Assembly (NCBI GenBank): GCA_015491865.1
Contig: WFVD01000004.1
Span: forward strand, 81,294-145,293
Length of the DNA stretch: 64,000 nucleotides
Direction of reading: 5' to 3'
From: Gammaproteobacteria bacterium
GTDB lineage: Bacteria; Pseudomonadota; Gammaproteobacteria; SZUA-140
Shown here: piece by piece, positions 2,690-20,643 of the stretch
Layout of the letters: each line of letters opens with the position of its first letter
Numbering within the stretch: the stretch's first letter is position 1
Program-made: the position numbers and the translations under genes
The notes under the pieces: model-generated
The model's input: only the letters and a program-made list of their open reading frames with translations
Database searches by the model: none
What the model was told of the DNA's origin: nothing

Positions 2690-3397
2690 TCACCCATGAG
2701 CATGCTCTTCATTCAGTATCGTTAGCAGCACATCAATATCTAACAGCGCACACATCTTTGCCACTACGATGCCGCAATACCATGGACGTTTAGTTGTCCC
2801 ACTCCGCCAGCGAATATCGGTCGGCCCCACTGTTTCAACTTCATCCACATGGCGGCAGGCGATCCCGATAGATCCCCCTTCAATTAAGACAATCCGGTTG
2901 GGCGGTAGCAGCGCATCACCTGCCGAAGAGAGGGGTTCACCACTTAACTCTGCCACAAGATGTTCAAAGTTGATCACCCTGACTGTTTGACCTCGATGGA
3001 GGATCACACCTAAGTAGCGTGCTGTATTCCCCGGTATCACTTTAATCTCATCACACTCGGTTAATATGCCACCCAGTTTTTCTAACGGCGCGGCTAATGT
3101 GATCTCACCTACATTAAAAAATAACGCCTTAAATGGACGCTTTCCCCATACTGGGGTGTCATTAGCCACGTTGGCGGCTTCAACTGCCGCCGATTGATGA
3201 ATAATATCGGCTGCGGTATCACTAACCTCAGTAACCCTCTGTTCTACTACCACTTCGGCAATATTTTCGGCACTGGTTTTCAGTTCAGTGACTGGTTCAT
3301 CAAACGTCGCCTCAGGGATCTCCATCAACAACGAATCCAGATATTGGGTAAGCGCCTTCTCCTGTGTTGCAAGGCCTCTCTCTTTTTTATCGTTCAT
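2690..3397 (-). CDS. parP: CheW-domain protein, ParP-like
   Basis: Variable N-terminus plus C-terminal CheW-like domain (PRFKALFFNVGEITLAAPLEKLGGIL...YLGVILHRGQTVRVI); directly next to a ParA-like gene inside the che cluster. Confidence 0.75.
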   Translation of the reverse strand: MNDKKERGLATQEKALTQYLDSLLMEIPEATFDEPVTELKTSAENIAEVVVEQRVTEVSDTAADIIHQSAAVEAANVANDTPVWGKRPFKALFFNVGEITLAAPLEKLGGILTECDEIKVIPGNTARYLGVILHRGQTVRVINFEHLVAELSGEPLSSAGDALLPPNRIVLIEGGSIGIACRHVDEVETVGPTDIRWRSGTTKRPWYCGIVVAKMCALLDIDVLLTILNEEHAHG

Positions 3398-4176
3398 CCT
3401 GCCGCCTTGAAATCTGACTTATCCTGCACCAAAACCGCTTTAAGCAGTTCAGCGTATGCGACTGAACCACGAGAACGAGGTGCAACAGATGAAATGGGGC
3501 GACCTGCACGGCTTGCTTCTCGGAACTGTGTATCAACAGGAATAACCTCATGCCAGAGCCCCTGCGGGTAACGCTCTCTCATATTTTCCAGCGCCTGCCC
3601 GGAGGCGCGGGTACGGCGGTCAAAAAGCGTTGGCACAATAAGATAGGGGATAGGGGTCATACGTGCATGGTTCATCATCGCAACCGTTCGCATCATACGC
3701 TCCAGCCCCTTTAACGCGAGGAATTCTGATTGTACTGGCACTACCAGGAAATGACAGGCAGCCAGCGCATTAACCATCAACACGCCCAATGTAGGTGGAC
3801 AGTCCAGCAGGGCGTAGTCGTAATCACTACTCACCTCGCTCAAACCACGCGCAATAACGAGCCCTTTTCCATCTTGCGTACCGAGCTGTCTATCGAGCGT
3901 TGCCAATGCAGTTGAGGCTGTAAAAATAGAGAGATTCTCAAACTCTGTTTTATAGATCATCGATGAAACGGGACCACTACCACTATGGAACAGGCCATAA
4001 AGGCTACTGCCATCACCTTCTGGATCAAACCCCATATAAGATGTCATCGAACCGTGTGGATCCATATCGACCAACAATACTCGCTCTCCCTGCTGAGATA
4101 ACAGTCCTGCCAGTGTCACTGCGGTAGTTGTCTTGCCAACACCGCCCTTTTGATTTGCGACCGCCCAGATACGCAC
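3394..4176 (-). CDS. parC: ParA-family ATPase, ParC-like (chemotaxis array positioning)
   Basis: MRIWAVANQKGGVGKTTTAVTLAGLLSQ deviant Walker A; 4-bp overlap with parP. Confidence 0.8.
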   Translation of the reverse strand: MRIWAVANQKGGVGKTTTAVTLAGLLSQQGERVLLVDMDPHGSMTSYMGFDPEGDGSSLYGLFHSGSGPVSSMIYKTEFENLSIFTASTALATLDRQLGTQDGKGLVIARGLSEVSSDYDYALLDCPPTLGVLMVNALAACHFLVVPVQSEFLALKGLERMMRTVAMMNHARMTPIPYLIVPTLFDRRTRASGQALENMRERYPQGLWHEVIPVDTQFREASRAGRPISSVAPRSRGSVAYAELLKAVLVQDKSDFKAAG

Positions 4177-7314: not shown

Positions 7315-9450
7315 TCAGGCATATGCCGTTAGTAGCTCTGGAACATCCAGGATCAGCGATATTTTTCCATTCCCTGTGATAGTTGCACCTGCCAGTCCAC
7401 GAGTGCCATGCAACATTGAGCCCAACGGTTTAATGACAACCTCTTCCTGACCGATCAGCTGGTCGACAACAAACCCTACCTGCTGTGCTCCTGAACTAAC
7501 GACAACCACATGTCCCTCTTTCTGGTCTTCGTTACGCCGGGCACCTTTTATTAACCACTCCCTCAGGTAGAAGATTGGCAGTGCCTTATTCCTGATCAGT
7601 ATTACCGGTTGGCCATCAACAACTTTCGATTCAGTTAGATCAAGATTAAATATTTCAACCACGCTAACTAATGGTAATGCGAACACCTGCTCTTCTAGCA
7701 ACACCATTAATGTCGGCATAATAGCAAGCGTTAATGGCAGTTTGATGGCAATACGACTCCCCTTTCCCAGTTCTGAGTCGATCTCTACTGATCCATTCAG
7801 TTGTGCGATGCGTGTTTTAACCACATCCATTCCAACACCACGACCTGAGATATCAGATATCTTCTCCTTGGTCGAGAACCCCGGCATAAAGATCAGGTTG
7901 AAACACTCTTTATCATCTAGTCGTGCGGCAGAGTCTTCATCATATAGCCCTTTATTAATCGCAATATTTCGTAGCTTATCTGCATCCATCCCGGCACCAT
8001 CATCATCGATGGTTAACAGGATATGGTCGCCTTCCTGTGTTGCTGAGAGCACAACAGTACCGGCGCGGTCCTTTCCTGAAGACTCACGTACGTCCGGCAT
8101 TTCAATACCATGATCAACAGAGTTGCGTATCAGATGCACAAGCGGATCAGCCAGTGCTTCTACAAGATTTTTATCAAGGTCAGTCTCCTCGCCTATCAGC
8201 TCGAGCGAGACCTCCTTTTTGAGACTTCTGGCTAGATCGCGAACCACTCTGGGAAAACGTCCGAAGACCTTTTTGATTGGCTGCATTCTTGTTTTCATCA
8301 CCGAGTTCTGTAGATCAGTTGTCACCAGGTCAAGGTTTGCAACCGCCTGCGTCATGGATTCATCACCCTTGGTGGACTCCAGTGTGGAGAGACGATTCCG
8401 GACCAGTACGAGTTCGCCAACAAGGTTCATAATGTCGTCGAGACGTTTCGTATCAACACGCACGGTTGTTTCTGTCTGCGCGGCCGTTTTCTCTTTCTTT
8501 TTTGCAGGTAGCTTAGCTGCTGGGGCCGGGGTAGTGGATTCAGGCGCGCTCTTCTCAACAACATTCTCAACTTTATTAGCAACCCCTTGAGCCAGAGTGC
8601 CCGCAGCAGGAGTGGCCGCTGGGGTTTCACCCTTACCATGTAACTGATCGAGTAGCGCCTCAAATTCATCATCGGTGATTAAGCCGTCATCCTTTGCTTG
8701 CTCTTTCGCTTGCTCATTAGCACCATCCACCTTCTCTTCACCAGTCGATGTAACCGCCTTTGGTACGCCGCCCCCATGCAGTTGATCTAATAGCGATTCA
8801 AACTCATCATCGGTAATCTCATCACTGCCCACTTCACTCCCACCTGATGTCTGTTGAACGGGCTGAACAGAACCTGGGGGACTTTCGCCATGTAGCTGAT
8901 CAAGTAAAGCTTCAAACTCATCATCAGTGATATCTTCTCCACCAGCAGAGGGTACTTCATTCACCGGCATTTCAACTGGAGAAGGGGGTGCAGCAGGCAT
9001 GGGTGGCACTGGAGGTTCAGCTGCAGCCGCTTCAGTCGGGTTCTCATTACTGTTTTCATCACTGCCGGAAAGAAACCGTTTTAATGTTTCAATCAGTTCA
9101 GGATCAGCGGGTGTTGGGTCAATCCCCTCACGCACTTCATCAAACATGTCATTAACACTATCAGTGACACGCAAAAAAGCATCCATCAAAGAGGCGTCAA
9201 CCACACGGTCACCCTGTCTTAAGATGTTAAAGACATCTTCCGCATGATGGCAAACTTCGACCAGTGCAGTTAGCGACAGAAATCCTGCGCCTCCTTTGAT
9301 TGTATGGAAACCACGGAAAACCGCATTTAGTAGCTCAGCATCCTCAGGGCTCTGTTCGAGATCAACCAGCTGTTCGCTCAGCTTCTCGAGAATCTCATCT
9401 GCCTCAACAAGAAAGTCCTGCAGGATTTCGTCGTCAGTATCAATGGCCAT
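7315..9450 (-). CDS. cheA: Chemotaxis histidine kinase CheA
   Basis: P1 FHTIKGGAGFL; HATPase LIRNSVDHGIE, ISGRGVGMDVV; C-terminal CheW-like P5. Linker carries three ITDDEFExLLDQLHG repeats. Confidence 0.96.
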   Translation of the reverse strand: MAIDTDDEILQDFLVEADEILEKLSEQLVDLEQSPEDAELLNAVFRGFHTIKGGAGFLSLTALVEVCHHAEDVFNILRQGDRVVDASLMDAFLRVTDSVNDMFDEVREGIDPTPADPELIETLKRFLSGSDENSNENPTEAAAAEPPVPPMPAAPPSPVEMPVNEVPSAGGEDITDDEFEALLDQLHGESPPGSVQPVQQTSGGSEVGSDEITDDEFESLLDQLHGGGVPKAVTSTGEEKVDGANEQAKEQAKDDGLITDDEFEALLDQLHGKGETPAATPAAGTLAQGVANKVENVVEKSAPESTTPAPAAKLPAKKKEKTAAQTETTVRVDTKRLDDIMNLVGELVLVRNRLSTLESTKGDESMTQAVANLDLVTTDLQNSVMKTRMQPIKKVFGRFPRVVRDLARSLKKEVSLELIGEETDLDKNLVEALADPLVHLIRNSVDHGIEMPDVRESSGKDRAGTVVLSATQEGDHILLTIDDDGAGMDADKLRNIAINKGLYDEDSAARLDDKECFNLIFMPGFSTKEKISDISGRGVGMDVVKTRIAQLNGSVEIDSELGKGSRIAIKLPLTLAIMPTLMVLLEEQVFALPLVSVVEIFNLDLTESKVVDGQPVILIRNKALPIFYLREWLIKGARRNEDQKEGHVVVVSSGAQQVGFVVDQLIGQEEVVIKPLGSMLHGTRGLAGATITGNGKISLILDVPELLTAYA
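8635..8931 (-). repeat. Three-copy ITDDEFE[AS]LLDQLHG protein repeat in cheA
   Basis: Copies at 8887-8931, 8773-8817, 8635-8679 (CheA residues 174-188, 212-226, 258-272). Confidence 0.95.
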
Positions 9451-9457
9451 ATTATCA

Positions 9458-10204
9458 TTAGAATCCTAGACTTGAGAGAAGGTCATCAACTTCATCCTGA
9501 CTCTTCAATGCAGTGGCACTCTCTTTTCCTGGCACTTGCGGCCCTTCCAGTACTTTCTCAACCGGTTTTTTAGTGGCTTTAGGTAAATCACTATCCAGGT
9601 CACCCGAGAGTTTTATCAGTCCAACCAGTTTATCTTCAACATCCTGCACAAGCGTAATTACGCGCCTGATAATCTGGCCGGTGATATCCTGAAAGTCCTG
9701 CGCCATCAAGATATCATTGAGGTATAACTTGATCTTTATATAGCGGTCAGCTGAAATCTCCAGGTGGCTTCCAATTTCACGTGAAAGTTCGCGAAACTCA
9801 TCTGCTGAAAGGTCCCGTGAAATAAACCGCTTCCACTTTACTTCAATATGAGAGGCGCTTGCTTCCAGTTCACTACAGACCGGTATTGCCTCTTCTACGG
9901 CGGTCAACGTTTTATGCGCCGCCTGATCAGTCACATTAATCACATGGCTCAGACGCTCTCTGGCATCAGGAATTTCATGTTCTGCAAGCTCTGAAATCTC
10001 AGTCTCAATACCAAACCCTACTAGCGTATCGTGAAGCTCTCGTGTTAGTTGGCCTATTTCCTGAAACATTTTTGTTTCATTAAGACGACTGATCTCTCTT
10101 AAATGGTCAACTGCTTTTCCCTCATCACCACTCTCTATGCTGCTAACCAGCCCACGCGCCTGCTCCAGGCATCGTTCACTTAATATTGACTCACTGAGCG
10201 CCAT
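9458..10204 (-). CDS. cheZ: Protein phosphatase CheZ
   Basis: DILMAQDFQDITGQIIRRVI and C-terminal QDEVDDLLSSLGF; start moved to MALSESI. Confidence 0.93.
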   Translation of the reverse strand: MALSESILSERCLEQARGLVSSIESGDEGKAVDHLREISRLNETKMFQEIGQLTRELHDTLVGFGIETEISELAEHEIPDARERLSHVINVTDQAAHKTLTAVEEAIPVCSELEASASHIEVKWKRFISRDLSADEFRELSREIGSHLEISADRYIKIKLYLNDILMAQDFQDITGQIIRRVITLVQDVEDKLVGLIKLSGDLDSDLPKATKKPVEKVLEGPQVPGKESATALKSQDEVDDLLSSLGF

Positions 10205-10226: not shown

Positions 10227-10607
10227 TTACTTTGATGCCTCAATACGCTCGAAGATCTTTTCTATCTTCTCCTTCAGCGTTGCTGCATTAAATGGTTTAA
10301 CCACATAGCCATTAACACCCGCCTGTGCAGCTTCCACAATCTGCTCCTTCTTGGCCTCAGCAGTTACCAGCAGCACTGGCAGGTTCGCCAGCTTCTCATC
10401 AGCACGAACAGCTTTTAGCAGATCAATACCCTCCATTCCCGGCATATTCCAGTCTGTGACCAGAAAATCAAAATCACCCGCCTGCAACATGGGCAGTGCT
10501 GTATTGCCATCATCGGCCTCTGCTGTGTTATTAAAACCAAGATCTCGCAAGAGGTTCTTTATGATCCGTCGCATTGTAGAAAAATCATCTACAATGAGTA
10601 TTTTCAT
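10227..10607 (-). CDS. cheY: Chemotaxis response regulator CheY
   Basis: [25 protein letters not shown]...[18 protein letters not shown]...VKPF. Confidence 0.95.
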
Positions 10608-10634
10608 ATCTTTATCCAAGGTAACCTCCCACAA

Positions 10635-13625: not shown

Positions 13626-15761
13626 CTATTCAGGTCTGCCAATGTTTGCGATAATCTTTATCTGCCTGTTATCTGGCATTTCGTTGTAAGACAGCACGTG
13701 TAAATTGGGTACTGTATTCCTTACAAAGCGTGCCAACATTGGCCTCAACGGAGCTGATACGAGTAATACCGCGGGCTGCCCTGCCATCTCCTGTCGTTGC
13801 GCCGATTCCAATAGTGACTGATGTATTCTTTCTGCCAACCCTGGCTCCAGTCCACCACCACTCTGCATAGATTCTTGCAATAACTGTTCCAAAGAAGGAT
13901 CAAGAGAAATAACCGACAACTCTGGCGATAACCCATTGATATTCTGAACTATCATCCGCCCAAGGCTGACACGCACCGCCGCGGTTAAAACGTCAGGATC
14001 TTGACTCCTGGTACCCTCTACCGCGAGCGTTTCGATAATCGTGCGCATGTCACGAATGGGAATGTTCTCTTCCAGCAGATTGCGTAGCACCTTCTGAATC
14101 GTACCGAGCGGCATCACATCAGGGACTAACCCTTCGACCAGTTTAGGTGCGCTCGTCCCTAGCCCATCAAGTAGATGCTGCACCTCTTCACGCCCTAGCA
14201 GATCGCAGGCCTGGCTCTGTAAGATTTGACTGATATGAGTGGCGACGACGGTACTGGCATCGACGACGGTGTAGCCCATTGTCTGTGCCTGTTCACGCTG
14301 ACTGGGATCGATCCAGACTGCATCCATCCCAAATGCTGGGTCTTTAGTGGGGGTACCCTGCAACGTACCAAAGACCTGCCCTGGATTAATCGCCATTTCA
14401 CGATCGGGATAGATATCAGCCTCTCCCACTGCGACGCCCATCAACGTAATCCGATAGGTGCCGGGTGATAACTCTAAATTGTCACGAATATGAACAGGCG
14501 GAATCAGAAAACCGATCTCCTGTGTCAGCTTCTTGCGAATCCCTTTAATACGCGCCATCAACTGACCATTCTGATTTTTATCGACAAGCGGTATCAGTTT
14601 GTAACCGACCTCAAGTCCTATAACATCAACCGGCTGCACATCGTCCCAGCTGAGCTCTTTATTCTCATCAGCCACCTCTTCCTGCGACAACTCACCTTGC
14701 TGCCCAGATTTAACGGGCTGGCCACCAGCAGCAGAAGGGGGTAGATGCTCCACTCCTGCTGCGGCCTCATCGCCAGTAGCACGCGTGGTGACATAAAATG
14801 CGGCGCCCCCTGCCAGCGCCGCAATGGTAAGAAAAACCAGGTTTGGCATGCCTGGAATCAGTCCTAGTGAGCCGATGACACCAGCGGTTACTCCTAACGC
14901 ACGTGGGCTTGAGAACATCTGAGAAGAAAACTGCTGCCCCATATCCTCTTCGCTAGAGACACGCGTCACCATAATTGCAGCGGCTGTCGAGAGAATTAAT
15001 GAGGGAATTTGAGCAACCAGACCATCACCGATGGTCAATAGCGTGTAGTTACGCATTGCATCAGAAAATTCCATCTCATGCTGCAGGATGCCGATCGCAA
15101 GGCCGCCCACGATATTGATAAAGAGAATCAAAATACCTGCAATGGCATCACCACGTACAAATTTACTGGCACCATCCATTGAACCATAAAAATCAGCCTC
15201 AGCCACCACATCAGCACGACGGCGCATGGCTTCGTCCTGGTCAATGGCACCTGCATTCAGGTCTGCATCAATGGCCATCTGTTTACCGGGCATCGCATCC
15301 AGTGTGAAACGGGCACTTACCTCAGAAATTCGTCCCGCACCCTTTGTCACGACAACAAAATTAATGATCACGAGAATCGCAAATACGACCAGACCAACCG
15401 CATAGTTTCCGCCAACCACAAAATCACCAAATGCCTCGATGACTTCACCCGCCGCATTGGTACCGGTATGCCCTTCTAGTAGTACCACACGGGTCGAGGC
15501 GATATTAAGCGCCAAGCGTAATAGTGTCGCAATCAACAGAATGGTTGGGAAAACAGCAAAATCGAGCGGTCGTTTCGCGTAAACTCCGGAGAGAATTACA
15601 ATCAGTGAGAGTGCGATATTAAAGGTGAAAAATAGATCGAGTAGAAATGGAGGCATCGGCACAACAACCATCGCCAGAATTGACACCAATAATAGCGGTG
15701 CACCAATCAGTCCATTGCGACTAATCTGGCGCGCGGTATCTAGTACAGTTGCTTCTGCCAT
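13626..15761 (-). CDS. flhA: Flagellar biosynthesis protein FlhA
   Basis: Full-length 711 aa export gate; ARFTLDAMPGKQMAIDADLNAGAIDQDEAMRRRADV. Confidence 0.96.
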   Translation of the reverse strand: MAEATVLDTARQISRNGLIGAPLLLVSILAMVVVPMPPFLLDLFFTFNIALSLIVILSGVYAKRPLDFAVFPTILLIATLLRLALNIASTRVVLLEGHTGTNAAGEVIEAFGDFVVGGNYAVGLVVFAILVIINFVVVTKGAGRISEVSARFTLDAMPGKQMAIDADLNAGAIDQDEAMRRRADVVAEADFYGSMDGASKFVRGDAIAGILILFINIVGGLAIGILQHEMEFSDAMRNYTLLTIGDGLVAQIPSLILSTAAAIMVTRVSSEEDMGQQFSSQMFSSPRALGVTAGVIGSLGLIPGMPNLVFLTIAALAGGAAFYVTTRATGDEAAAGVEHLPPSAAGGQPVKSGQQGELSQEEVADENKELSWDDVQPVDVIGLEVGYKLIPLVDKNQNGQLMARIKGIRKKLTQEIGFLIPPVHIRDNLELSPGTYRITLMGVAVGEADIYPDREMAINPGQVFGTLQGTPTKDPAFGMDAVWIDPSQREQAQTMGYTVVDASTVVATHISQILQSQACDLLGREEVQHLLDGLGTSAPKLVEGLVPDVMPLGTIQKVLRNLLEENIPIRDMRTIIETLAVEGTRSQDPDVLTAAVRVSLGRMIVQNINGLSPELSVISLDPSLEQLLQESMQSGGGLEPGLAERIHQSLLESAQRQEMAGQPAVLLVSAPLRPMLARFVRNTVPNLHVLSYNEMPDNRQIKIIANIGRPE

Positions 15762-19635: not shown

Positions 19636-20643
19636 CTACCCCGTTACTGTTTTAAGCTGCTTAGTGCTTTCGGCGACTACACGTTCCGTTATTTTGATCG
19701 CATTCTTCCCTTCTGACACACCAAACCGCCCCCTAAACAGGGGTATCTCTTCCACCCGAATGGTGACATTTTCTGGAAGATCAATTGGAATGATATCCCC
19801 CTTTCTAAGCCCATTAAGTTCTTCTAGTGTTATCTCTGTCTCTGCTAATACACTGCTAATCTCTACATCAGCCTCTTTTACCTCCTCTACGAGCGCAATA
19901 GACCAGCGGTGATCATTTTCATCCCTGTCACTTTGCACACCGGAATCCAGAAGTTCACGAATGGGCTCTACCATTGAATAAGGTAACGTCACATGAAGAT
20001 CACCACCTCCTCCTTCAAGCTCGATGTGAAAGGTTGTCACTACCACAACTTCACTTGGGCTAACAATATTTGCAAAGTGCGGGTTGACTTCTACTCCCTG
20101 ACACTCAAAAGTGACCGGTATCACTGGATGCCACGCCTCTTTCATATCTTTGTAACTTAGATCAAGCATCATCTGGACAATGCGTTGCTCAGTCGGGGTA
20201 AATTCCCTGCCTTCAATTTTGGCGTGAAACTTTCCTTCACCACCAAAGAAATTGTCAACAACTGTAAAAACAAGCTTGGGGTCAAATACAAACAATCCTG
20301 TTCCCCGAAGCGGTTCAACCTTAGTAAGGTTAAGGCTCGCAGGGACAAAAAGACTATGTACATACTCTGCAAATTTGAGCATCTGTACGCTGCCAACAGA
20401 AATCTCAGCGGTACGCCTTAGCATGTTAAACAGACTGACTCTAAAGTGACGTGCGAAACGTTCGTTGATCATCTCCAGCGTAGGCATGCGCCCACGTACA
20501 ATTCTGTCCTGACTATTAAAGTCATATTCATGCGCCGTGCCATCATCGAGCGGCTCATCATCTTCTGATTCGATATCGCCGCCGGTCACACCATGGAGCA
20601 GCGCATCAATTTCGTCCTGAGTTAATAGATCATTGACAGACAT
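19636..20643 (-). CDS. fliM: Flagellar motor switch protein FliM
   Basis: N-terminal CheY-binding LLTQDEIDALLHGV; FliM core. Confidence 0.96.
   Translation of the reverse strand: MSVNDLLTQDEIDALLHGVTGGDIESEDDEPLDDGTAHEYDFNSQDRIVRGRMPTLEMINERFARHFRVSLFNMLRRTAEISVGSVQMLKFAEYVHSLFVPASLNLTKVEPLRGTGLFVFDPKLVFTVVDNFFGGEGKFHAKIEGREFTPTEQRIVQMMLDLSYKDMKEAWHPVIPVTFECQGVEVNPHFANIVSPSEVVVVTTFHIELEGGGGDLHVTLPYSMVEPIRELLDSGVQSDRDENDHRWSIALVEEVKEADVEISSVLAETEITLEELNGLRKGDIIPIDLPENVTIRVEEIPLFRGRFGVSEGKNAIKITERVVAESTKQLKTVTG

Follow-up and report, generated by a model that had tools for sequence, protein, structure and literature searches.

Architecture of the CheA at the locus

The window, by which we mean the whole stretch of 64,000 nucleotides analysed here, carries a che operon whose genes described below lie on the reverse strand. 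The cheA gene (7315..9450) encodes a protein of 711 residues that consists of P1, a disordered linker with three short motifs, P3, P4 and P5. P1 (Hpt) covers residues 8-108 and the disordered linker about residues 128-330. Copy 1 of the motif is ITDDEFEALLDQLHG at residues 174-188 (8887..8931), copy 2 is ITDDEFESLLDQLHG at residues 212-226 (8773..8817) and copy 3 is again ITDDEFEALLDQLHG at residues 258-272 (8635..8679), which gives spacings of 38 and 46 residues. A degenerate DNA pattern of the motif has three matches in the window, where 0.00 are expected (none in 100 shuffles). The shorter pattern [DE]EF[DE]xLL has one match besides cheA in the whole 2.54 Mb genome, within a chemoreceptor-like protein. 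Also encoded here are cheY (10227..10634) and cheZ, and the same operon contains a parC-like gene for a ParA-family ATPase (3394..4176) and a parP-like gene (2690..3397), the product of which has an N-terminal extension and a CheW-like domain. On rechecking the sequence, the coordinates given in the earlier note for the CheA motifs, the FliM N-terminus and the CheZ C-terminus were all correct.

This CheA had been suggested to lack the P2 domain. Pfam was dropped as a test because it overlooks P2 in control CheA that visibly carry one; the absence of a Pfam match is thus uninformative, and the question was put to AlphaFold2 and to a P2 profile instead. In keeping with this, Berry et al. 2023 (PMC10782961) report that HMMER picks up P2 in fewer than 20% of CheA, and HHpred in roughly half of them. 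The AlphaFold2 model (49 sequences, mean pLDDT 73.8) contains no strands between residues 127 and 334, that is, between the end of P1 and P3. The only helices predicted there, with moderate confidence, are isolated ones at 176-186, 214-224 and 260-270, one per motif, and the linker outside them is mostly below pLDDT 50. In a Foldseek search with the model, the best matches listed cover P3-P5 or kinase domains and not the linker.

The P2 profile was built from 12 P2-bearing CheA of other classes. It matched none of 177 CheA of the window's type, presumably the published F6 class, and 18 of 22 other CheA, up to 12 of those 18 being in the profile itself. The motif pattern showed the opposite distribution, with 176 of the 177 F6-type CheA and 1 of the 22 others. 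The earlier note had proposed a survey of motif copy number against the presence of P2, and had named a recognisable P2 in the linker as the finding that would speak against it. The survey was run, and by profile and pattern P2 and motif are mutually exclusive across the CheA compared; neither structure prediction nor profile found a P2 in the linker, which supports the suggested absence. Other CheA genes in the source genome of the window do encode a visible P2.

Conservation of the linker motifs

In pairwise comparison the window copies have different codons at 8 of 15 positions but differ by one amino acid at most. Compared with six CheA of the same genus, amino acid changes affect 8.9% of compared positions in motif codons and 57% in the spacers, against 5.5% in P1 and 6.2% in P3-P5. 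Since motif codons change so much less than the spacers, the codon comparison indicates that each copy is under strong purifying selection. Together with the codon differences between copies, the low replacement relative to these relatives indicates that each copy is old and separately maintained. All near-invariant positions of the P1-P3 linker in 49 aligned CheA fall within the motifs, which are the sole conserved linker sequence there, and position 6 is Phe in 99% of CheA motifs.

Distribution of the motif array among CheA proteins

Loci from named and further genomes yielded 175 distinct CheA of the window's type, and the motif pattern is present in 174. Copy number by the same pattern is one (10 proteins), two (35), three (105), four (23) or six (1), and neighbouring copies lie a median of 42 residues apart. 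Pseudomonas, Marinobacter, Shewanella, Alteromonas, Pseudoalteromonas, Aeromonas and Methylomonas are represented. Three copies are also found in the CheA of genomes that we presume to be Vibrio: we infer this from their CheY, which shares 94-98% identity with 3to5, the solved CheY of V. cholerae. Of 397 genomes of the phylum, 71 contain the longer pattern [DE]EF[DE]xLLDxLHG; among the matches listed, all are in the window's class, Gammaproteobacteria, with none in the genomes listed from other classes. A reversed control pattern gave no match among the rows listed in the same scan. The motif array is thus a class-wide trait of CheA with two to four copies as the norm.

The earlier note had put forward triplication as a point to test. 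Three copies are indeed present in the window, but 8 of 15 codons distinguish any two of them and the array occurs class-wide, which rules out a recent local triplication; with two to four copies usual, the number three is not the key point.

Two variants of the array were observed. The CheA of one genome (G052, locus L027) has about 939 residues or more, matches the motif seven times and carries an extended (PAKPAAA)n tract ahead of P3. In the presumed Vibrio CheA (L267-L273), copy 3 is followed by a conserved extension, GPSxEELDAATKP, which is a candidate for a ParP-specific part of the CheA-LID discussed below.

Resemblance to the CheY-binding peptides of FliM and CheZ

Two known CheY-binding peptides are encoded in the window on the reverse strand, TQDEIDALLHG at the N-terminus of FliM (20590..20622) and QDEVDDLLSSLGF at the C-terminus of CheZ (9461..9499). 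Both are highly conserved in the genomes compared. The CheA motif shares with the FliM peptide (complex 1F4V) and the CheZ peptide (complexes 2FMF and related) the core D-E-hydrophobic-[DE]-x-L-L, and thereby has the acidic, hydrophobic, LL amphipathic helix core of such peptides. It differs from them in carrying Phe where FliM and CheZ have Ile or Val, in an added LDxLHG end and in standing in several copies inside a linker.

A BLOSUM-smoothed profile of 435 CheA motif instances was scanned over the window and over 4357 non-CheA reading frames from other loci. The FliM N-terminus was the best non-CheA 15-mer of 25,813 in the window at every smoothing tried, and the CheZ tail was within the first ten at two smoothing settings and was lost at the third. 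Among the 4357 frames FliM was the best-ranked family: the top 100 included 27 of 35 FliM, matched at the N-terminus in nearly every case (hypergeometric 2.6e-39); CheZ placed 8 of 79 there (4e-4), many matched away from the C-terminus. Scanned in reverse with a FliM profile, the window gave CheZ and the CheA motif copies among the best matches. A CheZ profile did not recover the CheA motif. A sharp unsmoothed matrix, which placed FliM first and CheZ second in the window, was set aside as it ranked CheZ tails inconsistently elsewhere; relative to it, smoothing kept FliM and demoted CheZ.

In these profile comparisons the likeness of the motif to the FliM peptide is solid and that to the CheZ tail moderate and one-way: the CheA profile ranks FliM first and the FliM profile has the CheA copies among its best matches, and the CheZ profile does not retrieve the CheA motif. 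The motifs had been described as resembling both peptides. For FliM this holds, far above background, but for CheZ the resemblance is weaker than claimed. Apart from these peptides, the FliM and CheZ profiles score LGREEVQHLLDGLG, within the FlhA-like protein of the window (13626-15761), highest or nearly so, probably by chance.

On the side of the proposed partner, the alpha4-beta5-alpha5 docking face of the window CheY matches that of E. coli CheY. The residues I95, A99, Y106, V108, F111, L116 and K119 are nearly invariant among 151 CheY; they form the docking face in the solved complexes 1F4V, 2FMF and 1EAY. All three entries contain chains homologous to the window CheY.

Persistence of the motif without ParC or CheZ

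ParC orthologues (41-60% identical) lie near most F6-type cheA loci with enough flank, and seven genomes (G303, G029, G041, G173, G193, G281 and G044) have none. In ParC-less genomes the best matches (31-36%) are either a ParA of another type or the chromosomal one next to gidB and parB; in G303 the ParC search gave no match at all. The CheA of all seven retains the motif or a variant of it, in the typical threefold form in G303, twofold in G029, as one copy in G041 and G173, as variant EITDDEFEALLNQRD-type repeats in G193 and G281, and as degenerate pairs in G044. G303 is a single contig, 100% complete, with the order cheY-cheZ-cheA-cheB-cheW; cheB is followed directly by cheW, and motCD, parC and parP are all absent from its che operon (L274). 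This locus stands beside the presumed Vibrio in the CheA tree. In a quick tree of the CheA core, which has some long branches, most ParC-less rows fall within ParC-bearing groups; five label changes are needed, at least three of them forced by well-supported branches.

The altered repeats of G193 and G281, two genomes of one family, belong to their CheA (L151, 7473-9612, forward strand; L152, 7533-9728, reverse strand) and read DPDGEITDDEFEALLNQRD three times and DPDDDITDEEFELLLQMRE twice. They have lost the LHG end and gained a new conserved LPEGVDPDG-type start, and the CheZ of these two genomes ends in LGI instead of LGF.

CheZ was also missing by Pfam search from five genomes (G041, G173, G152, G359 and G341), all of them motif-bearing. 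A cheY gene was present in 7 of 7 loci examined that lack ParC or CheZ. Among the candidate partners, only CheY thus occurs throughout these lineages. Because the motif is retained after such losses with cheY still there, its retention fits CheY docking better than ParP/ParC docking alone.

Discussion

We believe that the CheA linker is best read as a multivalent CheY docking array in place of P2, a reading that we hold with moderate confidence. The array would occupy the same P1-P3 position as P2 (PF07194, PF09078) and is proposed to do the same job, docking CheY and possibly CheB. In contrast to P2, it consists of several short helix copies rather than one folded domain, has no fold and shows no detectable sequence similarity to it. 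According to Berry et al. 2023 (PMC10782961), P2 is absent from about half of CheA and an unstructured region is present, as in the CheA described here; since so many CheA lack P2, a docking site is not obligatory, which weighs against our reading. The sections of that survey consulted mention no conserved motif array in the unstructured region.

By analogy with the solved complexes of the FliM and CheZ peptides, each motif may become helical when it docks on the alpha4-beta5-alpha5 face of CheY. CheY would then be held by its output face near P1, with its phosphorylation site left free for P1. Copies of a FliM-like helix probably let one CheA capture several CheY molecules. Two to four weak sites per chain, hence four to eight per dimer, would raise the local CheY concentration and so speed phosphotransfer, as P2 does in E. 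coli. Once phosphorylated, CheY would pass to the related FliM peptide at the motor. Some features speak against this reading. The CheZ tails match only moderately, Phe is nearly fixed at position 6 although the FliM and CheZ peptides carry Ile or Val there, and the LDxLHG end lacks a FliM counterpart; the last two suggest a further or different partner.

The most serious competing explanation is that the motifs are the CheA-LID bound by ParP, whose CheW-like AIF domain tethers the array to polar ParC, with CheY uninvolved. ParP and ParC are encoded in the window operon and beside nearly all motif-bearing cheA with enough flank, and ParP has two near-invariant tryptophans (positions 197 and 206 in the window protein). 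The Vibrio LID is placed between P2 and P3, only in CheA with ParC/ParP (PMC7534058, PMC5706961), and so lies in the same linker, before P3, where the presumed Vibrio CheA carry three motif copies. On these grounds ParP may well bind at least one copy, because the LID is placed in this linker and nothing else is conserved there. Where ParP exists, at least one copy probably doubles as its LID. As the whole explanation, ParP docking seems rather unlikely to us. The LID is described as one extra domain after P2, whereas no P2 is seen in the F6-type CheA. The motif moreover outlasts ParC in seven genomes, in typical form in G303 and altered or degenerate in three, and the ParC-less rows are mostly nested in the tree. 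ParP alone would also leave the FliM resemblance a coincidence. Likewise doubtful is a shared array read by both CheY and the ParP AIF domain, in which docking and polar anchoring would compete for the copies or divide them. The window ParP-like protein has R and I at positions 127 and 177, where about 90% of ParP have tryptophan.

Other partners appear improbable. The motifs might bind CheZ or another component (CheW, receptors, CheB or a polar landmark) and neither CheY nor ParP. E. coli CheA-short is reported to bind CheZ (PMC7750401), so a CheA is able to recruit CheZ, and the LHG part of the motif has no FliM counterpart; the five genomes in which Pfam found no CheZ nonetheless retain the motif. 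That the motifs cross-link CheA through self-association, as SHOCT-type helices, we consider very unlikely. SHOCT (PF09851) matches copy 3 of the window (residues 252-270) with 28.6 bits against a curated cut-off of 27, and 46 of the 49 CheA in the alignment give a hit at E no higher than 0.1 (lowest 2.3e-7). The window match covers 19 of the 28 SHOCT positions, and the majority of the more divergent CheA with motifs that were tested have no match or one below cut-off. The family name implies a C-terminal position, while the CheA copies are several and internal between two domains. SHOCT helices would explain neither the resemblance to FliM nor the exclusion of P2, and the label is probably a short partial match arising by convergence.

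CheA without P2, the LID, and CheY-binding peptides in FliM and CheZ have all been described before. No description of the conserved CheA motif array was found in the open-access literature searched. Standard depictions of CheA include P2, and one has been ascribed to the proteins of Pseudomonas putida and Vibrio cholerae (PMC11978298, PMC7534058). The F6-type CheA examined, Pseudomonas included, show none. Polar-flagellate Gammaproteobacteria such as Pseudomonas and Shewanella, and apparently also Vibrio, have CheA in which P2 is missing and two to four copies of a FliM-like helix stand in the linker instead.

The array is in addition a concrete candidate for the ParP-binding LID. If the shared array is real, signalling load and array positioning would be coupled via the disordered CheA linker. 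If the array docks CheY, it would offer a simple handle on how P2 can be dispensed with and on how copy number tunes signalling, and a large group of polar flagellates would deliver CheY to both kinase and motor by similar short peptides, present in multiple copies on the kinase.
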